Assembly (NCBI GenBank): GCA_017303715.1
Contig: JAFLBZ010000046.1
Location: 1-32,830, forward strand
DNA from: Rhodothermia bacterium
GTDB taxonomy: Bacteria > Bacteroidota > Rhodothermia > Rhodothermales > UBA2364
Direction of reading: 5' to 3'
DNA: 32,830 nucleotides
The notes beneath the pieces are model-generated. The model saw nothing but the letters and a program-made list of their open reading frames with translations. It did not search any database and was not told the DNA's origin. The translations under genes and the position numbers were made by a program. This document shows positions 19,378 through 29,536 of this stretch, piece by piece. Position 1 is the stretch's first letter. Each line of letters begins with the position of its first letter.

Positions 19378-19621
19378 GGCTTTTATTGTTTTTGAGAATG
19401 AAGGAGTTGATTTTTTTTCTCGCGAGATCTGTACAAATGGATTATCGAATTTTGAAAAAGGGGAGTATCAGCGAAAGGCGACTTCACAGCAAGTTCATAG
19501 AGGGCTTTGGTTTTGAGATCATGACTTTTTGAAATACAACATATGCGTGCTACATTCTTGTATCTTATGCCGAAAAGTAATGGGCAAATTAGGCTTTTTT
19601 GGGATGTTCTTACGAAAGTAC

Positions 19622-19650
19622 TTGCGTGTCAAAAAACGCTTTCTTATATT
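19622..19650 (+). promoter_or_regulatory. Candidate sigma-70-like promoter for the GbsR-type gene
   Basis: TTGCGT (19622-19627) and TATATT (19645-19650) are separated by exactly 17 bases. Transcription would begin near 19657, about 34 bases before the ATG at 19691. Sequence match is moderate; many Bacteroidota use a different -33/-7 consensus, so confidence is limited. Confidence 0.45.
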
Positions 19651-19656
19651 TCAATC

Positions 19657-19674
19657 GTTTGAAAATTATCAAAC
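19657..19674. promoter_or_regulatory. Candidate operator GTTTGA-N6-TCAAAC
   Basis: GTTTGA (19657-19662) and TCAAAC (19669-19674) are perfect inverted arms around a 6-base AT-rich spacer. The site covers the predicted transcription start and lies 16 bases before the regulator's ATG, the right place for autorepression by a dimeric winged-helix protein. Confidence 0.5.
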
Positions 19675-19690
19675 AAAACAAAATTTACAA

Positions 19691-20191
19691 ATGGCGCTTG
19701 AACTCTCGCCTTTACAAAATGAATTAGTTGTAGAATTTGGCAACATATATGAGAACTATGGTTTTCAGCGGATCAAGGGTCTCATTGTGGGCTTGCTCTT
19801 GGGCCAGCCGGAGCCAATGAGTCTTGACGACATTGTGGATGCATTGGGCCGATCGAAAGGTCCGATCTCGACAGCCGTCCGCGAGCTATCTACGATGGGC
19901 ACTTTGCGCAAAGTAACAGGGCCGGAGAATAGACGGGACTACTATACCACCCATCCCGATCTTTTCTTCAATAACTTCATGTTCAACATGCAAACGGTGC
20001 GGCGCAATCGGCGCATTGCCGAGCAGTTTTTGAACGAAGTGACGCCAGACGCCCCCGGAAATGGGCATCTGATCCGGAATTTGGAACACATGCGTGCGTT
20101 TTACACCTTAATGGAAACGTTTTATCGCAACTTCTCGGAAGAGTGGAAGCAACAGCGACCCACCCCTATCCGTCCAGAAGAAGAGCGCTAA
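19691..20191 (+). CDS. GbsR/MarR-type transcriptional regulator
   Basis: The 166-residue protein from the ATG at 19691 has the GbsR-like layout: an N-terminal helix (ELVVEFGNIYENYGFQRIKG), a winged helix-turn-helix (about 35-85) with MSLDDIVDALGRSKGPISTAVRELSTMGTLRKV, then a wing with RRDYYTTHPD, and a C-terminal helical dimerisation region ending in a charged tail. GbsR relatives regulate osmolyte uptake in Bacillus, but in other bacteria they control varied membrane or transport genes. The TonB-dependent receptor gene follows after 41 bases, so the two are probably in one transcript and the receptor is a likely target. An upstream start at 19529 would add 54 unfamiliar residues and was rejected. 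Confidence 0.85.
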   Translation: MALELSPLQNELVVEFGNIYENYGFQRIKGLIVGLLLGQPEPMSLDDIVDALGRSKGPISTAVRELSTMGTLRKVTGPENRRDYYTTHPDLFFNNFMFNMQTVRRNRRIAEQFLNEVTPDAPGNGHLIRNLEHMRAFYTLMETFYRNFSEEWKQQRPTPIRPEEER

Positions 20192-20232: not shown

Positions 20233-22803
20233 ATGAAACCTCTCCGCACCATATGGGCCTGCGGCATGGCATTGCTTTGCTTGCTCGCCCCGACGGTAGC
20301 CGCCCAAACCATAAGCGGCATCGTTCGGGACGGTGGCTCCAATCTGCCGTTGCCCGGCGTTACGGTTGCTGTTGTCGGTTCCAATACCGGAACAGTAACC
20401 AATGTATCTGGCGCATATTCGCTCAATGTAGGCAAGGCTGGCACCTTTAGCATTCGTTATTCGTTTGTAGGCTATGCCGCCGAGACCCGCTCTGTTCTTT
20501 TGGCCGTTGGCAAAAACCAAACCTTAGACGTATCGCTGAGTCCGGTTATGTTGTCTGGAGACGAAGTGGTGGTTACAGCCTCGCGTCGTCCCGAAAAACT
20601 GACGGAAGCACCGGCGTCCATTAGTGTGATTACCGCGAAAGATTTCGACCAAATCGCCTCGTTCAATGTGGGTGAATTGGCCTCGAAAATTCAAGGCGTA
20701 GAGTTTGTGCGGACGGGTGTAACGGGCGTAGGCTTTAATGCGCGTGGGTTTAACAATGCGTTTAATGCAAAAGTTGTGGCAATGACCGATGGCCGTAACT
20801 CCATGATGGCGGGGGGGAGTGGCTTGCCGGCAGGAATTATGAACACAGTGATCAAAGAAGACATCGAGCGTTTGGAAGTGGTGCTTGGCCCGAATTCGGC
20901 GCTGTATGGCCCCAATGCACACAATGGCGTGGCCAATACCATTACCAAAGACCCACGTCGTTATCCGGGGACAACGGTGGCCTTCTCTGGCGGGAGCCAA
21001 AGCGTTCTGTCGGCGCGTTTGCGTCATGCACAATCTTTAGGAAGCAAACTTGCGTTTAAAGTAACGGGTGAGTTTACGAAAGGTGAAGATTTTGATTTTA
21101 CGGACAGTGTTTTTGTGGGTGGATCGGTTTATGGGCGTGTGCGCTCGGTTCCCGAACGCAATTTAGACCACACCTTCCAGCACATTCGCGGAGAAGGCCA
21201 TTTATACTTTACCCCAAAAGCCGGAAACGACTTCATTTTGTCTTATGGCGGTAGTGTGAATGACTTCTTGAGCGTCAACAATGTGGGACGCAACCAAATC
21301 CAAGACTGGAAATTCTCGTATGCACAAGCCCGTTATGTCTCGCCTCGTCTTTTTGGTCAGGTCTATTATACGTGGACGGATGTTGGCACTTCGTATGGGA
21401 TTACACCCTATACCCGCGATTATACCAACCGAATAAACAGCACCATCACGGATCCGGCCAGTCCTTTCTTTCCGTCTGTTGGCCGCCTCTCCTCCCAAGC
21501 TGCCGAAACCTTTGGCCTGCGCTTGGGGAACCAGTTCAAAGAAAAATCGGGACGTCTAAATGCGGAACTTCAGTACAATACTGCCATCGAGCCGCTCGGT
21601 ATAAACCTTGTTGCTTCTGCCAGTTACCAAAAAGACAGTCCGAACACCTATGGAACCTCGATTGCGGACAGCACCGTTCCGGGACAAGAAGGAACCCTCA
21701 TCGAGATTACCCAAATGGGCGCTGCGCTACAATTGGAAAAAGCCTTGCCTGCCGGATTTAAATTGGTTGCTGCTGGTCGCTTAGACAACCACAGCAGTTT
21801 TGGCAATCAGTTTGCGCCAAAAGTTGCAGTTGTAAAAACGGTTGGTGATGGAGCCTTCCGCGCAAGCTATGGACGTGCATTCTCCAATCCGTTAATTCTC
21901 TTCCAATACGCCTACATCTTTAATATTGTATATGGCAATGGGCAAGGCATTCGCTACATCCCCAATGGCGCCAATGTAAATGATGCTTCTGCCATTAAGA
22001 CCACCGATCCACTCCGTCCGGAGCAAATCGGAACCTATGAAGTAGGTTATAAAGGCACGTTCAACAAAAAAGTATTTGTGGATGTGGCGGGTTATTATGG
22101 GAAAACCAAAGACTTCCTTAGCCCCACGATTGGGGTTCTGGGCCGCGCACTCACGATGGGCGATATTGAGATCAAAAATACCGCCGTTCCGGGAGCTGTA
22201 AATGCTTCTGGTGTACTCTCCGGCGCACAGTTTCTGACCTATTTCAATTATGGTCAAGTGGATGCATGGGGCGTTGATCTTGGAGTAAACTACTACCTGA
22301 ACAAAAGCGCAACGCTGGGTGTGAAGTATTCTTGGTTCGACTCCGACATCACCGATGGCGATATTAAAAACGACGCCAACCGCGATGGTGCTGTCTCCGC
22401 CGAGGAACGTAGTCTGAATGCGCCAAATCACCGCGTGGCAGGTACCTTGAGTTTGGCAAACATTGCCGGAAAGCCGCTTTTTGCCAATATCTCGGCACGT
22501 TGGGTACAAGAATATGACTTCTACTCTGGCAACCAAATTGGTACGGCAGCAGGTGAGGGCAAACGTGGTGTGGTATCGGTAACGCTACCAAGTGGTGTAA
22601 CGGCAAACTACCTTAAGAACTGGAATCATGGTGCATTGGGTGGCTTTACAACCGTTGACCTGAGCATGGGCTATGCCCTAAACAAAATGTTCTCGTTGGG
22701 CGCTGCGGTAAGCAATGTGTTTAATGTAGAACAACGCGAGTTTGTTGGCTCGCCCTCTATCGGACGCTTGATTTCTTTTGAACTAAAGGCCAACCTGAGA
22801 TAA
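20233..22803 (+). CDS. TonB-dependent outer membrane receptor
   Basis: This 856-residue protein is an energised outer membrane importer. After a signal peptide (1-25, ending TVAAQ) it has a CarboxypepD_reg-like domain (about 27-104, GIVRDGGSNLPLPGVTVAVVG), a TonB-box-like DEVVVTASRRPEK (110-122), a plug domain (about 125-240) with IQGVEFVRTGVTGVGFNARGF, and a long beta-barrel. The C-terminus, IGRLISFELKANLR, ends in a typical last strand. It is shorter than most SusC proteins, has no SusD partner nearby and shows no siderophore-specific feature. It follows the GbsR-type gene by 41 bases; I start it at the ATG at 20233, directly before the signal peptide. A strong terminator follows. The ligand is unknown; the genes downstream hint at an organic acid or ester. 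Confidence 0.93.
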   Translation: MKPLRTIWACGMALLCLLAPTVAAQTISGIVRDGGSNLPLPGVTVAVVGSNTGTVTNVSGAYSLNVGKAGTFSIRYSFVGYAAETRSVLLAVGKNQTLDVSLSPVMLSGDEVVVTASRRPEKLTEAPASISVITAKDFDQIASFNVGELASKIQGVEFVRTGVTGVGFNARGFNNAFNAKVVAMTDGRNSMMAGGSGLPAGIMNTVIKEDIERLEVVLGPNSALYGPNAHNGVANTITKDPRRYPGTTVAFSGGSQSVLSARLRHAQSLGSKLAFKVTGEFTKGEDFDFTDSVFVGGSVYGRVRSVPERNLDHTFQHIRGEGHLYFTPKAGNDFILSYGGSVNDFLSVNNVGRNQIQDWKFSYAQARYVSPRLFGQVYYTWTDVGTSYGITPYTRDYTNRINSTITDPASPFFPSVGRLSSQAAETFGLRLGNQFKEKSGRLNAELQYNTAIEPLGINLVASASYQKDSPNTYGTSIADSTVPGQEGTLIEITQMGAALQLEKALPAGFKLVAAGRLDNHSSFGNQFAPKVAVVKTVGDGAFRASYGRAFSNPLILFQYAYIFNIVYGNGQGIRYIPNGANVNDASAIKTTDPLRPEQIGTYEVGYKGTFNKKVFVDVAGYYGKTKDFLSPTIGVLGRALTMGDIEIKNTAVPGAVNASGVLSGAQFLTYFNYGQVDAWGVDLGVNYYLNKSATLGVKYSWFDSDITDGDIKNDANRDGAVSAEERSLNAPNHRVAGTLSLANIAGKPLFANISARWVQEYDFYSGNQIGTAAGEGKRGVVSVTLPSGVTANYLKNWNHGALGGFTTVDLSMGYALNKMFSLGAAVSNVFNVEQREFVGSPSIGRLISFELKANLR

Positions 22804-22817
22804 TCTTTTGAACGGAA

Positions 22818-22854
22818 GGGCGGTATTTTTTTCGGGAACTGCCGCCCATTTTTT
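22818..22854 (+). terminator. Intrinsic terminator after the TonB-dependent receptor gene
   Basis: GGGCGGTA (22818-22825) pairs with TGCCGCCC (22840-22847) through 8 positions including one T-G wobble, around a 14-base loop, and is followed by ATTTTTTG. It lies 15 bases after the stop and should separate the regulator-receptor transcript from the genes that follow. Confidence 0.8.
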
Positions 22855-22909: not shown

Positions 22910-23896
22910 ATGCGAAAAGCCAAAATTATCGGAACAGGGTTGTATGCACCGGATCGGGTCATCCCCAATGCACACTTTAATGAAATGTATCAGCAGGATG
23001 TGGATGCTTTTCTGCGTGAAAACCGCAATATCTTTGAGCGGCGATACATGACAGAAGGTCAAACCACCTCCGATCTGGCCGCCGAAGCTGGTCGCCGCGC
23101 CATTGAAAATGCTGGACTTAGACCGGAAGACATTCAGTTGGTCGTGGTGGCAACCGATACGCCCGATTTTCTCTCGCCCTCTACAGCAGCTATCGTGCAA
23201 CATAAGGTGGGTGCGACTGGGGCTGGCTCGTTTGATGTGAATACCGCTTGTGCTGGATTTGCTACGGCCTTAGATATAGGCAGTAAATACATTGGTGCAG
23301 ATGTCCGCTATCGGTATGTATTGGTCATCGGGGCCTATGGCATGAGCCGTTTTTTAGACTTCCGAGACCGCAATGTCGCTACCCTTTTTGCCGATGGCGC
23401 TGGAGCCGCCGTCCTTACACCCTCTAACGACGAAAGCGGAGTACTGGCTTCGCGCTTGTGGTCGGATGGGCAGTACAGCGACTACATGGGGCTATATGTG
23501 GGTGGCGCGGCTACCCCACCAACAGAAGTCCTCGTCCATGATCAACAACATTTGCTTCAATTCCGGAAAAAATTCCCCAAAACCTTTAATTTTGACCTCT
23601 GGACGGGGGTGATTGAGGAATTGTGTGACGACTTGGGCATTACACCACACGATGTAGATCGTTATTTCTTTACCCAAATCAATATCCTCACCATCCGGGA
23701 AGTCCTGACACATTTCGACCTTCCCGAACATAAAACCCATTACATCATGGATCGGTATGGCTATACCGGAAGTGCCGCCATTCCGATGGCCTTGGCGGAT
23801 GCACATGCGGTAGGAAAACTCCAGCGGGGCGAACTCGTGTTTATCGTCACTTCTGGGGGGGGAGCCGCTATGGCCGCGCTTGCCCTTCGGTGGTAA
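22910..23896 (+). CDS. KAS III (FabH)-like thiolase-fold protein with altered active site
   Basis: FabH-type enzymes condense an acyl thioester with malonyl-ACP using a Cys-His-Asn triad. The protein has 328 residues from the ATG at 22910, normal for the family, with KIIGTGLYAPDRVIPN at the N-terminus, the nucleophile Cys114 in DVNTACAGFATAL, and ADGAGAAVL. Where FabH normally has the HQAN block, this protein has FTQIN (residues 254-258), with Thr255 in place of His. Where GNTSAAS is usual it has GYTGSAA, with Tyr285 in place of Asn. So two of three catalytic residues seem replaced, by my hand alignment. It may be an acyltransferase or a specialised condensing enzyme. It precedes a symporter and an acyl-CoA ligase gene. 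Confidence 0.85.
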   Translation: MRKAKIIGTGLYAPDRVIPNAHFNEMYQQDVDAFLRENRNIFERRYMTEGQTTSDLAAEAGRRAIENAGLRPEDIQLVVVATDTPDFLSPSTAAIVQHKVGATGAGSFDVNTACAGFATALDIGSKYIGADVRYRYVLVIGAYGMSRFLDFRDRNVATLFADGAGAAVLTPSNDESGVLASRLWSDGQYSDYMGLYVGGAATPPTEVLVHDQQHLLQFRKKFPKTFNFDLWTGVIEELCDDLGITPHDVDRYFFTQINILTIREVLTHFDLPEHKTHYIMDRYGYTGSAAIPMALADAHAVGKLQRGELVFIVTSGGGAAMAALALRW

Positions 23897-23941: not shown

Positions 23942-25411
23942 ATGGACGCACACGTAATTGGCTGGCTGTTTTTTGGCGTTTATATCGCTTTTATGGCTTA
24001 TGCCACCTACTTAGGCCTTAAACAAAGCAAGGGTTTGGCCTCTTTTTCGGTGGGCAACCGCCAGATAAACCCGATTTGGGTGGGCTTGTCCTTGGCGGCA
24101 AACCTGACAAGTGCAGCCACCTTTGTCATCAATCCGGGCTTGGTGTATCATTTTGGCTTGGCCGGATTTTTTGGATACGCTGTTGCTACTCCTTTGGGCA
24201 TTATGGTAGGGCTAATCATCGTCTCAAAAAGTTTCCGGCGGGTTGGCGATCAATTTGCCGTTCTCACCGTTCCGCAATGGATTGGCGACCGATTCGGAGA
24301 CAAACGGCTTACGCTATTTTATGCCTTTCTAAGTTTATTGCTCATCACGTTTTTGGTTCTCATCACTGTAGGATTGGCGCGGGTTTTGGGTGCTTTATTG
24401 GGCATAGATTTATTGGTGGCCATTGCCATTGTTATTGTTTTACCTCTGGTGGCCATTTTCTTGGGCGGTGCAGGTGCGCACATTCTGATCAACTCGGTTC
24501 AGGCACTTATCATGCTTCTGGTCGCCCTGATTTTGCTCGGCTCTGGTCTTTCCTACTTCTCGGAAGGCATTGGTGGGTTTTTAGGCAAGCTTAGCGCCAT
24601 AGATCCGCTCCTTGCTCAACCCATAAACCCGAAAAGCGCCCTATTCCGGAATTTTTTCGAGGTTTATGTGGCCAATTTTGTGATCGGGATTGCGGTCATT
24701 ATGCAGCCTCATATTATTTCCAAAGCACTTTATTTAAAGACGGAAGGTGATGTAAATAAATACCTTACGACGGGGCTGGTAACGGTTTTTTTCTTCTTCA
24801 TGGTACTCATTGTAGGTGCATTTGCCCGTATTCAATTCAATGATCCAAGCCTTGCCGTAGATGCTGTAATGCCCAAGTACCTCACCGATCACTTTGGCCC
24901 TATAGTACGAGGAATTGTGGCACTCGGCTTGCTTTCCGCTGGATTTTCCACGATGGAGGGCTTGCTCGTTTCTCTCTCGGCCATTTTTGCGAATGACGTC
25001 TATAAAAACCTCTTCACCAAGCCTGATGAATCGGGTGAAGACGTAGATCAAAAGGCACTTCGTTACGGGAAAGGTTTCTTATTGGTGCTTGCGCCCGTTT
25101 TATTTCTCATTTCTGCAAGCCAAATCAAGCCCGATCTTTCGGTGGCCATGTTGGCGCAAAATGGCGTTTATGGCTTGTTTTCGGCCACATTCGCCCCCGT
25201 ATTGTTTGGCATCTTCTCTAAACGACTCACCAAGGGCGGTGTTTTGGCTTCTGCGCTAACGGCCATTGCTATCCATTTTGGGATGACTTACGGAAAAGTT
25301 ACTTTTATGGCCAATAATCCTGCTGTCCCTGCTACATTTGCCATTGTGGGTAGCTTCTTGGTGGCCACACTTGTTACGATCCTAAACCGAAAACCTACTT
25401 CCCAAGCCTAA
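23942..25411 (+). CDS. Sodium:solute symporter (SSS) family transporter
   Basis: This 489-residue protein has about 13 hydrophobic helices and the SSS pattern: YLGLKQSKGLASFSVGNRQINP near residues 24-45, then LSLAANLTSAATFVINPG, the FRRVGDQFAVLTVPQWIGDRFGDKR loop (about 99-123) and GLLSAGFSTMEGLLVSLSAIFANDVYK (about 332-358), the usual helix and loop late in the core. SSS proteins import sugars, amino acids, osmolytes or monocarboxylates with sodium. The acyl-CoA ligase gene begins 6 bases later, which points to a carboxylate substrate; this is inference from linkage. It lies 45 bases after the KAS III-like gene. Confidence 0.92.
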   Translation: MDAHVIGWLFFGVYIAFMAYATYLGLKQSKGLASFSVGNRQINPIWVGLSLAANLTSAATFVINPGLVYHFGLAGFFGYAVATPLGIMVGLIIVSKSFRRVGDQFAVLTVPQWIGDRFGDKRLTLFYAFLSLLLITFLVLITVGLARVLGALLGIDLLVAIAIVIVLPLVAIFLGGAGAHILINSVQALIMLLVALILLGSGLSYFSEGIGGFLGKLSAIDPLLAQPINPKSALFRNFFEVYVANFVIGIAVIMQPHIISKALYLKTEGDVNKYLTTGLVTVFFFFMVLIVGAFARIQFNDPSLAVDAVMPKYLTDHFGPIVRGIVALGLLSAGFSTMEGLLVSLSAIFANDVYKNLFTKPDESGEDVDQKALRYGKGFLLVLAPVLFLISASQIKPDLSVAMLAQNGVYGLFSATFAPVLFGIFSKRLTKGGVLASALTAIAIHFGMTYGKVTFMANNPAVPATFAIVGSFLVATLVTILNRKPTSQA

Positions 25412-25417
25412 AACAAC

Positions 25418-26902
25418 ATGAGAACCGACTGGCTGGCGCGAAATGCACAATATTATCCACATAAAACGGCCATCGTTTGGCAGCCCGAAAAACGGCGGAT
25501 TTCGTTTGCGGAGTGTGAAGCGCTTGGCAACCAAACGGCCCAATGGCTTGCGCAAGAACATGGCTTAAATGCCGGAGACCGTGTGGCCATCTTGGCCGAA
25601 AACAGCCTTACCCACCTCTTGTTGTTTTTTGCTTGTCAAAAGGCCGGGTTTGTTCTGGTTCCGATCAATTATCGCCTGACACCTGCTGAGGTACAGTACA
25701 TTGTAGAAGATAGTGACCCCACGGTTTTGTTTTATGGCGATTCGTTTGCTGCGTATATCTCGGAATTAACCCCACGTTGCTTGCCAGTCATAGAAGTTCC
25801 TCAAGTCATTGTAAGTAAAGAAAATACACCAAGAGAATATCTGCAAAATCCAGAGGATGCGGTGATGATTCTCTATACTTCTGGAACCACTGGACGGCCA
25901 AAGGGGGCTATGATGACGCATAAAATGCTTGCGTTTAATGCCTATAACACCATTATGCGCCTTGATTTAACCACCAAAGACATTTCGTTTAATGCGGCTC
26001 CTTTTTATCATACAGGTGGGTGGAATGTCCTGCTAACACCATTCCTGCTGTTGGGCGCAACCACCATCTTGTTAGACCGCTTCGACCCAGCACAAATCTT
26101 ACATCTTTGCGAAGCGGAGCAGATGAGCATTATTTGGGGTGTACCAACCATGATGAAGATGCTCTCCGACGATCCTCAATTCCCACAAGCCAACCTTAAG
26201 AGTGTACGCTATGCCATTGTGGGCGGCGAACCCATGCCCATTCCACTCATCGAGAAGTGGCAGGAAAAAGGCGTCCCCATTCGCCAAGGCTTTGGTATGA
26301 CGGAAGTTGGTCCAAATTGCTTCTCACTCCCCGAAGAAGACGCTATTCGCAAAGCCGGCTCAATTGGATTTCCAAATTTCTATGTGGATGTGCGGGTGGT
26401 GGATAACCAAGGAAACGATGTGCCTCTCGGTACAACGGGCGAGTTGTTGATGCGTGGCCCAATGACCACTTCCGGCTATTGGCGGAACGAGGCCGCAACT
26501 CAAGAAAGTCTCAAAGAGGGATGGTTTTATACTGGAGATTTGGTGAGAATAGACGACGAAGGCTATTGCTATGTGGCCGGACGTAAAAAGGACATGTATA
26601 TTTCCGGCGGCGAAAATGTGTATCCCGCCGAGGTCGAAAAGATCCTCTATCAACATCCCGCCATTGCAGAAGCAGCTGTGATTGGGGTTCCAGATGCCAA
26701 ATGGGGCGAAACCGGAATGGCTTTTGTGTCCCTAAAACCCAATCAAACCGCCACCGAGATCGAGTTGATCGCCCATTGTCGCAATCGCGTGGCTCGTTAT
26801 AAAACCCCCAGTTATGTACGTTTCCTGCCAGAATTGCCCAAGGGACACAGCGGGAAAATACTTAAAAAAGACTTGATGAAGAGTCTGTTTACCAATGAGT
26901 AG
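25418..26902 (+). CDS. AMP-dependent acyl-CoA synthetase/ligase
   Basis: ANL-family acyl-CoA ligases activate a carboxylic acid to acyl-AMP and then to acyl-CoA. The protein has 494 residues, with the P-loop-like YTSGTTGRPKG (153-163), the GMTEVGPN motif, the YTGDLVRIDDEGY hinge region, GRKKDMYISGGENVYPAEVE, and a C-terminal PKGHSGKILKKDL containing the catalytic Lys480. The layout is like medium- and long-chain fatty acid CoA ligases, but substrate choice cannot be read with certainty. The start is 6 bases after the symporter stop, so the two are translationally close and probably serve import followed by activation. No Thr/Gly signature loss was seen; the enzyme looks functional. Confidence 0.93.
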   Translation: MRTDWLARNAQYYPHKTAIVWQPEKRRISFAECEALGNQTAQWLAQEHGLNAGDRVAILAENSLTHLLLFFACQKAGFVLVPINYRLTPAEVQYIVEDSDPTVLFYGDSFAAYISELTPRCLPVIEVPQVIVSKENTPREYLQNPEDAVMILYTSGTTGRPKGAMMTHKMLAFNAYNTIMRLDLTTKDISFNAAPFYHTGGWNVLLTPFLLLGATTILLDRFDPAQILHLCEAEQMSIIWGVPTMMKMLSDDPQFPQANLKSVRYAIVGGEPMPIPLIEKWQEKGVPIRQGFGMTEVGPNCFSLPEEDAIRKAGSIGFPNFYVDVRVVDNQGNDVPLGTTGELLMRGPMTTSGYWRNEAATQESLKEGWFYTGDLVRIDDEGYCYVAGRKKDMYISGGENVYPAEVEKILYQHPAIAEAAVIGVPDAKWGETGMAFVSLKPNQTATEIELIAHCRNRVARYKTPSYVRFLPELPKGHSGKILKKDLMKSLFTNE

Positions 26903-26993: not shown

Positions 26994-27947
26994 ATGAAAC
27001 TTCCTCATCTGATTCTTTTATTCACGGCACTCCTCACCGGATGCCACAGCACCAACATTCCAACCATGCCCGTGACCGATTCGCTTCCACATGCCCTTTC
27101 GCCAATGAAAAAAATATCTGTAGGCAACCACGAAATTGCCTTTTGGGAGGGCGGAAAGGGCAAAGAAGTGCTGTTGTTCGTACATGGTCTCGGCTCTAAC
27201 TCGTCCTTTTGGAAAGAAAATCTGGGTGCATTTACCCAAGAATACCGTGTAATTGCCATAGACTTGCCGGGATATGGGGCTTCGTCTAAAGAACAAGTTC
27301 CGGCAACCATGCCTTGGTTTGCCGACCAAGTGGCCGCTTTTCTCACGGCCATGCGCCTCAAAAAAGTAACTTATGTGGGCCTCTCGATGGGTGGCCAAAT
27401 TGGGATGACCTTGGCGCTAAAACATCCCGAGCGTGTGGAGCGATTGGTCTTGGTGTCGGCAGCCGGCATAGAGACTTTCGATCAAAAGGCCCGAACAAGT
27501 CTCCGAAATTTTATGACGGTTAAGTCCATTATGGAGGCTACCGATCCGCAAATCAATACAAGCATCGCCCTCAATTTCGACACATGGGATGCCGCGAAGT
27601 TTGGCTGGTTGGTAGCGCAGCGGAAGGCTTGGAAAACCCGTCCAGACTTCCGTGCGTATGCCGAGGCAAACGAAAAATCGGTTTCGGGCATGTTAGATGG
27701 TCCGGTCTTTGAGCAATTAGACGCCCTGCACCTGCCTGTTTTGGTACTCTATGGCAAGGGTGACAAGATGATCCCCAACCGCTTCTTTAATCCGGCGCTG
27801 ACCACAGCCGATATTGCGGCGCGTGCCCAGAATGCGCTTCATGGCGCACAAATGGAATTGGTGGAAAAAGCGGGACATTTGCTTCCGTTGGAGCAACCCG
27901 AACAGTTTAACCGTTTGTTGCAGTCTTGGCTTAAATCTGTGCGATGA
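26994..27947 (+). CDS. Lipoprotein alpha/beta-hydrolase
   Basis: This 317-residue protein has a lipoprotein signal peptide with lipobox LLTGC (Cys17), so the mature enzyme is probably lipid-anchored in the envelope. The hydrolase fold shows the oxyanion segment FVHGLGSN (62-69), the nucleophile elbow GLSMGG with Ser131, Asp257 in YGKGDKMIP, and His295 in KAGHLLPLEQP, a complete Ser-Asp-His triad. Likely an esterase or lipase-like enzyme; the substrate is unknown. It follows the acyl-CoA ligase gene by 91 bases on the same strand. Releasing an acid outside the inner membrane would suit the symporter and ligase before it. It converges on pyrB with only 6 bases between stops. Confidence 0.9.
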   Translation: MKLPHLILLFTALLTGCHSTNIPTMPVTDSLPHALSPMKKISVGNHEIAFWEGGKGKEVLLFVHGLGSNSSFWKENLGAFTQEYRVIAIDLPGYGASSKEQVPATMPWFADQVAAFLTAMRLKKVTYVGLSMGGQIGMTLALKHPERVERLVLVSAAGIETFDQKARTSLRNFMTVKSIMEATDPQINTSIALNFDTWDAAKFGWLVAQRKAWKTRPDFRAYAEANEKSVSGMLDGPVFEQLDALHLPVLVLYGKGDKMIPNRFFNPALTTADIAARAQNALHGAQMELVEKAGHLLPLEQPEQFNRLLQSWLKSVR

Positions 27948-27953
27948 AGTCCC

Positions 27954-28916
27954 TTAGCCCATCTCGACAAGTGTAGCGGGGTTTTGTCCGCCGGCCAGTA
28001 GGTACAAACAAGCCATTCTCGTGGCCACACCATTGGTAACCTGATCCAAAATCACGGCGCGTTCATGATCTACCACCTCACTGGCCAACTCGACTCCTCG
28101 GTTTACAGGGCCTGGGTGCATAATGCGCAAGTCGGGATAGCGCAACAAATGTGCCATGGTTATGCCAAATTGGTTGTGGTATTCACGTAAACTGGGATAC
28201 AAACTGGTGTCTTGTCGTTCTAATTGGATTCGGAGCGCCATCGCCACGTCACAGCCTTCTAACGCCTCATCGAGCCGATGCGTAATGCGGCATCCAAATT
28301 GTGAAAGGCCGTATGGCATCATGGTGTTGGGGCCACAAAGGGTAACGTTTGCACCCATCTTCGTAAGACCATAAATATTGGAACGGGCAACACGGCTGTG
28401 GCTTATGTCCCCAATAATGGAAACATTTAAACCCTCGAACTGAGGAGCGATATCTGAAATGGTCAGCAAGTCCAAAAGCGCTTGTGTTGGATGTTCATGC
28501 GCACCATCTCCGGCATTTAACACAACCGCATCTACGCATTGCGTCAGGAAATAGGCGGCACCGGGGGACTTGTGGCGGATTACGGCAATATCCACTTTCA
28601 TTGCTTCTATATTTTGGGCGGTGTCTTTCAGGGTTTCGCCTTTTGAGATCGAAGAACCAGACGAAGCAAAACTAACGGTATCTGCGGACAAACGCTTCTC
28701 GGCCAATTCAAATGAAATGCGGGTACGGGTGGATGGCTCAAAAAAAAGATTAACCACCGTTAGTCCTCGTAGTGCTGGGACACGAGGGATTTGCCGCCGC
28801 AGTACCTCTCGAAATTCCCGCGCCGTAGCCAAAATCAAAGCAATCTCCTCACGGCTAAAGGTTGCCAAGCCTAATAAATGCCGATGACGGAGTGTGGTAA
28901 GCGGTTGTATCATCAA
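27954..28916 (-). CDS. pyrB: Aspartate carbamoyltransferase catalytic subunit
   Basis: PyrB joins carbamoyl phosphate and aspartate in the first committed step of pyrimidine synthesis. The 320-residue protein has the carbamoyl-phosphate-binding motif [13 protein letters not shown] (59-71), the [12 protein letters not shown] segment (about 141-152) and the aspartate-loop-type [11 protein letters not shown] near residue 263. Length is typical of the free catalytic chain. No pyrI regulatory chain or dihydroorotase gene lies next to it. Its start overlaps the pyrR stop by 4 bases (ATGA type), so translation is coupled and pyrR lies upstream in the same transcript. Confidence 0.97.
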
Positions 28917-29536
28917 AACTTATGAAGGCGTTGACCAAAATCGGGATTGTTGCCACCCTTGCGTTTATGCGCAGGCACATCCACCAACCAGACACCATCC
29001 TCTTGGTCCTGTTCTTGTAATTTAACCCGCACCTCTTCGCCAAGCGTGGTTGGGACAAAGCGCCCTACGATGTCTGCTTGAAGGGGCAACTCGCGCAAAC
29101 CACGGTCTATCAATACCAAAAGCCGGATGGTCGTAGGACGTCCTAAATCCAATAAAGCATCTAAGGCCGCCCGTACTGTTCGTCCGGTAAAGAGAACATC
29201 ATCCACCAAAACGATGTGTGCCTCATTGACATCAAAGAGGATCTCTGTACGGCGAACAAGGGGTTGGTAGAGACGCCGGCGAACGTCGTCGCGGTATAGG
29301 GTTGCATCCAGAATGCCAAAATCCAGTGTACTTCCTTCTGCTTCTCGGATTTTCTGGTGCAGACGACGGGCCAAGTGGACGCCCCGTGTTTGCATTCCCA
29401 CCAAAGCAAGTTTTGAGGAAGACAAGGCATTCGGCTCAAAAACTTCTGTTACCTCGCGGGCCATTCGCGATAGCGTTCGGTCTAAGTCCGCCGAGGTCAT
29501 CAGTTGGGCTTTAATATAGTCTTGGGGCTGCATCAT
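28913..29536 (-). CDS. pyrR: PyrR bifunctional pyrimidine regulator/uracil phosphoribosyltransferase
   Basis: PyrR binds pyr mRNA in Gram-positive bacteria and also has uracil phosphoribosyltransferase activity. The 207-residue protein shows [13 protein letters not shown] (47-59), a [15 protein letters not shown] segment and the PRPP-binding loop [12 protein letters not shown] (109-120). It is about 25 residues longer than the Bacillus protein, mainly through a C-terminal extension ending in [10 protein letters not shown]. It comes first in a two-gene operon with pyrB, overlapping by 4 bases. I could not recognise a PyrR-type RNA attenuator in the 130 bases upstream, so regulatory use of RNA binding is uncertain in this organism. 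Confidence 0.93.

Follow-up and report, generated by a model that had tools for sequence, protein, structure and literature searches.

What does an enzyme of the KAS III fold do once it has kept the catalytic Cys and lost both the His and the Asn of the triad? In FabH, the His and Asn are needed for decarboxylative condensation. The question is raised by a gene on a 32,830-nucleotide stretch of a Rhodothermia bacterium (Rhodothermales; assembly GCA_017303715.1, contig JAFLBZ010000046.1), a stretch that we call the window (Table 1). The original prediction, made from the letters of the window, had read the encoded protein as keeping Cys114, with Thr255 in the HQAN block (TQIN for HQAN) and Tyr285 in the GNTS block (GYTG for GNTS). 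It had suggested that such an enzyme may move acyl groups without condensing them or may use a different mechanism, perhaps with acyl-CoA from the nearby ligase. Below we refer to the protein and its homologues as C-T-Y, after the three residues.

Table 1. Features of the window, with the number of related loci (of 37) in which each neighbour recurs
Feature	Position	Strand	Remark	Loci
MarR/GbsR-type winged-helix regulator	19529..20191	+	true start probably internal ATG	26/37
TonB-dependent receptor	20233..22803	+	ORF listed from 20143	14/37
KAS III-like protein, 328 aa, Cys114/Thr255/Tyr285 replacing Cys-His-Asn	22910..23896	+		
Asp83 codon	23156..23158	+	aligned to HMG-CoA synthase Glu79 (1xpk) and E. 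coli FabH Thr81	
Cys114 codon, nucleophile position (FabH Cys112)	23249..23251	+	alignments	
Thr255 codon at FabH His244 position (TQIN for HQAN)	23672..23674	+	alignments	
Tyr285 codon at FabH Asn274 position (GYTG for GNTS)	23762..23764	+	alignments	
SSF sodium:solute symporter	23942..25411	+		25/37
AMP-binding acyl-CoA ligase	25418..26902	+		31/37
alpha/beta hydrolase, lipoprotein-type N-terminus (LTGC)	26994..27947	+		29/37

Fold, triad and conservation of the C-T-Y protein

Translation of the window gives the gene as a single open frame, and the protein matches both halves of KAS III in Pfam (PF08545, 87 bits with a cut-off of 24; PF08541, 84.6 bits with a cut-off of 26.6). Its closest solved relatives are ordinary FabH enzymes, at about 30-34% identity. 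Comparison with solved FabHs by phmmer, a profile search and MAFFT alignment all place Cys114 at Cys112 of E. coli FabH, Thr255 at His244 and Tyr285 at Asn274, so the predicted residue numbers are exact. In the MAFFT alignment, the known functional residues of the E. coli FabH sequence land on the correct numbers. An AlphaFold2 model of the protein (mean pLDDT 96.4) fits E. coli FabH to within 1.6 Å over 317 residues with a Z of about 46, all whole-chain figures, and this high-confidence superposition makes the triad alignment secure. In fold and length the protein is like the FabH enzymes of E. coli, A. aeolicus and others, and it has their nucleophilic Cys, their Gly-rich GGG loop and, from the HQAN block, the Gln and the Asn; it differs from them at His244 and Asn274 and at most positions that contact CoA or ACP. 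The curated FabH cut-offs of NCBIfam are narrowly missed (PRK09352, 246.6 vs 249 bits; TIGR00747, 222 vs 292), and in Pfam Thiolase_N scores 25.3 vs a cut-off of 26.4 and Thiolase_C does not match. The protein is thus a KAS III by fold, yet it lacks two of the three defining residues and falls just below the curated thresholds, which together make FabH an unsuitable name for it.

The substitution is fixed. Cys-Thr-Tyr is present in all 58 distinct family members, and Cys-His-Asn in 46/46 other KAS III sequences, a comparison set that is rich in Burkholderiales and does not amount to 46 independent cases. That set includes both FabH-like paralogues of the window's genome, one of which adjoins plsX. 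Within the order, 22 of 114 genomes have an orthologue of the C-T-Y gene; across the phylum Bacteroidota, 56 of 394 sampled genomes do. The C-T-Y proteins form one clade with support of 100/100 in a tree built with the two trait columns removed. Two distant members, in Planctomycetota and Pseudomonadota, retain the Cys, Thr and Tyr. No member was found in Actinomycetota at the chosen threshold, in a search that had no positive control and so shows little. Against two copies from the same genus, dN is about 0.07 and dS 1.1-1.4; the gene is under strong purifying selection. Decay or sequencing error is ruled out by this low ratio and by a frame that is open in all members, and the triad swap is an old, maintained change. 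On the tree and alignments, the clade itself is best described as old, well conserved and derived from FabH.

Conservation also bears on whether the protein could be a non-catalytic partner that supports another KAS III or a thiolase, as PqsB does PqsC. PqsB has a KAS III fold without the catalytic residues (PMC4807248), and three operons contain, beside the C-T-Y gene, another KAS III-like gene, one of PRK06840 type. PqsB-type subunits, however, have lost all three catalytic residues, whereas every C-T-Y member retains Cys114 and the other active-site changes are fixed as well. Most operons, including that of the window, are without a second KAS III. We regard a purely supporting role as very improbable.

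Residues that may stand in for His and Asn

Histidine is conserved in no column of the C-T-Y alignment, the best reaching 39/58. No catalytic His that has moved elsewhere is thus apparent and, with Thr and Tyr invariant in the homologue alignment, both His and Asn are truly absent, as had been predicted. Besides the triad positions, the family is invariant at Asp83, Tyr143, Pro223, Asn227, Trp231 and Ser315, all of which are also retained in the Planctomycetota and Pseudomonadota members. Asp83 stands where FabH has Thr81 and Tyr143 where it has Asp140, and Phe87 of FabH is replaced by Ser89. Phe87 limits acyl length in FabH, and a change of this kind widens the acyl pocket (PMC3734052). A parallel with Ser317 of PqsD for such a widened pocket was dropped, as the mutagenesis primer matches Ser317 to Gly306 of FabH and not to Phe304 (PMC3734052).

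Asp83 is the most suggestive of the invariant residues. Each of three MAFFT modes puts it opposite Glu79 of HMG-CoA synthase (1xpk; its sequence was confirmed in the PDB), and the same column is acidic in none of the 46 FabHs. In a passage of PMC13412983 that cites Chun et al. 2000, Glu79 is named as the residue that acts as general base when the C-C bond forms. Going by the alignment, Asp83 would face Cys114. HMG-CoA synthase thus shares with the C-T-Y protein the Cys nucleophile (Cys111 for Cys114) and an acidic residue at this site, here Asp and not Glu; it differs in that the equivalents of its His233 and Asn275 are Thr255 and Tyr285, and it is distant in sequence. A literal aldol or retro-aldol reaction could be imagined, in which an acyl-Cys enolate adds to a keto-acyl-CoA or a branched 3-hydroxyacyl-CoA is cleaved. 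Apart from Asp83, weak HMG-CoA synthase profile matches over residues 3-142 point this way. The protein is nevertheless much nearer to FabH (246.6 bits for PRK09352 vs 59.5 for PRK04262, whose curated cut-off is 244), both partner residues of HMG-CoA synthase are replaced, and the operons showed nothing mevalonate-like. We therefore consider this version of the chemistry improbable. OleA, a Claisen enzyme of the superfamily, likewise works without decarboxylation and needs an acidic residue to do so (PMC7064751). We liken the C-T-Y protein to it by description; in OleA the residue is Glu117, contributed by the other subunit, and His285 is also in the active site.

Can the Cys work without its usual partners? 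PqsBC, a KAS III whose triad is incomplete by nature, has a Cys that acyl-CoA acylates almost as fast without the His as in the wild type (PMC4807248), which makes an active, Cys-only acyl-enzyme plausible here. It differs from the C-T-Y protein in being a heterodimer that carries out decarboxylative condensation, with a PqsC that retains the His and has Val for the Asn. The precedent lends some weight to the view that the C-T-Y enzyme also still condenses with decarboxylation, as part of a biosynthetic operon, with the substrate or other residues such as Asn227 and Asp83 supplying the missing groups. An amino group of the substrate stands in for the absent Asn in PqsC, and loss of the His in FabH lowers activity only about tenfold (PMC4807248). 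Asn227, aligned by MAFFT with Ala216 of FabH and located on the helix after the flap, is by its invariance a candidate replacement for the catalytic Asn. On the other hand, every C-T-Y member lacks both the His and the Asn, and the gene is surrounded by those for importers, a CoA ligase and a hydrolase of the secreted type. The CoA/ACP-binding positions of FabH (Arg36, Gly209, Phe213, Lys214, Arg249 and Lys256) are not retained in the MAFFT alignment, most members having Asn or Leu for Arg249. This loss is a weak sign, because the KAS III of A. baumannii serves ACP although it, too, has neither Arg36 nor Arg249 (PMC8036411). Persistence of the ancestral reaction seems unlikely to us.

Alternatively, the protein could be an acyltransferase or thioesterase without C-C chemistry, with Cys114 passing an acyl group made by the ligase to a carrier, an alcohol, an amine or water. 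Loss of both decarboxylation residues with retention of the Cys, the adjoining CoA ligase and the acylation of PqsBC without its His (PMC4807248) would all fit. CerJ, ChlB3 and DpsC are KAS III folds with altered triads, and two of them are acyltransferases (PMC9573744). They differ from the C-T-Y family, which has no conserved His, in carrying a His, paired with Asp or with a second His, at the altered position. In CerJ and ChlB3, a His-Asp pair activates the Cys, and its His sits at the FabH Asn position (PMC9573744), where Tyr285 is fixed here; the C-T-Y protein is therefore not an acyltransferase of the CerJ/ChlB3 type. Acyl transfer would also leave unexplained a fixed Asp83 at the HMG-CoA synthase Glu site, and among the recurrent neighbours we noticed no gene for a carrier protein. 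We judge it a rather unlikely account, yet the likeliest alternative to our preferred reading, followed by substrate-assisted decarboxylating condensation, the aldol reaction and the non-catalytic role.

The operon and its genomic setting

The C-T-Y gene lies in a conserved operon. Our neighbourhood set comprised 40 related loci and the window, and counts refer to the 37 loci where the automatic gene caller kept the C-T-Y gene, with neighbours taken on the same strand and within 8 kb; as the loci are related, the counts are not independent. The ligase is found in 31 of the 37, so the suggestion that acyl-CoA comes from it is a sensible reading. Its nearest solved relatives are the feruloyl-CoA / fatty-acyl-CoA synthetase entries 8wev and 8weu. 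An MFS transporter takes the place of the SSF symporter in five of the loci, and in Planctomycetota the C-T-Y gene has beside it a divergently oriented SSF symporter gene of this family. In the window, the Met of the TonB receptor at 20233 opens a signal-peptide-like stretch. Loci with the receptor (14/37) never have the AlgE/OprD-fold barrel that occurs with a small lipoprotein in 20/37. This outer-membrane barrel (with its lipoprotein, our families 6 and 7, loci L126-L165) has about 515 amino acids and at best a weak Pfam match, to Alginate_exp, in 8 of 21 members. A FabG-type SDR is among the neighbours in 27/37 loci; it is absent from the window's operon, and its orthologue stands alone elsewhere in that genome. 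The importers, the secreted-type hydrolase and the CoA ligase argue for uptake and activation of carboxylic acids, and the gene set looks built for organic acid uptake and breakdown. In the open-licence literature, we found no paper on the C-T-Y clade or on its operon together with polyhydroxyalkanoate (PHA).

Several features beside the genes are worth recording. The gap that separates the KAS III gene from the TonB receptor holds a hairpin (22818-22854), GGGCGG...CCGCCC with an 18-base loop, which is followed by A and six T and could be an attenuator or a terminator; its loop exceeds the rule of our hairpin scan, and it is not in the scan's list. Genes for PyrR and aspartate carbamoyltransferase lie directly past the operon on the opposite strand (27957-29536). 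The additional KAS III-like protein mentioned above (PRK06840 family) is encoded at L144:13316-14335 and in loci L159 and L160, and by eye its triad reads Cys, His, His (LHFKQS, IGHVGQ), another altered triad. The window's genome has a fourth KAS III-like gene on contig C14 (L204:5772-9880), which by eye adjoins an F390-synthetase-type ligase-like ORF, a hydrolase-like ORF and an epimerase-like reductase, a group reminiscent of an Ole- or resorcinol-type cluster.

A possible link to PHA comes from two genomes of one genus (L138, L162), where the class III PHA synthase genes phaE and phaC, then the regulator and the SDR gene, lie directly ahead of the C-T-Y gene, in that order. The window's genome has a separate PhaE-PhaC-PhaB-thiolase cluster (contig C36, L188:7490-12311), and its organism probably stores PHA. 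Of 394 genomes, seven are PhaC-positive and five of these have the C-T-Y gene, a co-occurrence to which we give little weight because the five come from two genera only. A connection to extracellular PHB depolymerase was dropped, as no match exceeded the cut-off in the 114 genomes of the order. A substrate link to 3-hydroxyacids or PHA may exist, resting on one lineage. Ordinary thiolases are present in 113 of the same 114 genomes, and three or four of the C-T-Y operons themselves contain a thiolase gene, so the C-T-Y enzyme is not just the sole thiolase that the cell has, and a replacement of that kind is ruled out.

A proposed reaction and its meaning

The reading that we prefer, with a probability of roughly 0.4, is that of an active, CoA-linked enzyme of organic-acid catabolism that forms or, likelier, breaks a C-C bond without decarboxylation, in the manner of a thiolase or an HMG-CoA synthase. 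The original suggestion of acyl transfer without condensation stands as one option, since acylation of a Cys without the His is known (PMC4807248); Asp83 at the Glu79 position and the FabG-type dehydrogenase next door make C-C chemistry without decarboxylation at least as likely. From the fixed residues and the neighbours we infer activity, a catalytic Asp83, a type and direction of reaction and a class of substrate, and the chemistry probably differs from that of the KAS III relatives.

In this proposal, the decarboxylation machinery of KAS III would have been lost and a working enzyme kept. A CoA ester would hand its acyl group to Cys114. The carboxylate of Asp83, at the site where HMG-CoA synthase has its general acid/base Glu, would serve as acid and base, and the hydroxyls of Thr255 and Tyr285 could hold the thioester carbonyl oxygen, formerly the job of the His and Asn. 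The result would be a C-C bond made or broken without decarboxylation. In the cell, the lipoprotein hydrolase might free a carboxylic or hydroxycarboxylic acid, which would enter through the TonB receptor or the porin and then the SSF symporter, to be activated by the CoA ligase. The FabG-type SDR could then oxidize a 3-hydroxyacyl-CoA to the 3-oxoacyl-CoA, and the C-T-Y enzyme would most likely carry out a thiolase-like step, cleaving the 3-oxoacyl-CoA by way of acyl-Cys114. Counted against this last step are the SDR's position outside the window's operon and the thiolase beside PhaC in the window's own genome.

The C-T-Y family may add a new catalytic arrangement to the thiolase superfamily, namely a Cys-Asp-Thr-Tyr enzyme derived from FabH that works without His or Asn, catalyses non-decarboxylating C-C chemistry and forms the core of an undescribed organic-acid catabolic operon of Bacteroidota. 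We put this wider proposal forward tentatively, as doubtful but worth stating. Cys-His-Asn is treated as the hallmark of KAS III enzymes, and C-T-Y proteins are given the name 3-oxoacyl-ACP synthase III by annotation pipelines that go by similarity; a correction would touch a gene with the breadth among sampled Bacteroidota given above (56/394). The clade offers a test of how the KAS III fold does acyl or C-C chemistry when the residues normally used for decarboxylation are gone. If our reading of the operon is true, it would expose an unrecognised catabolic route.
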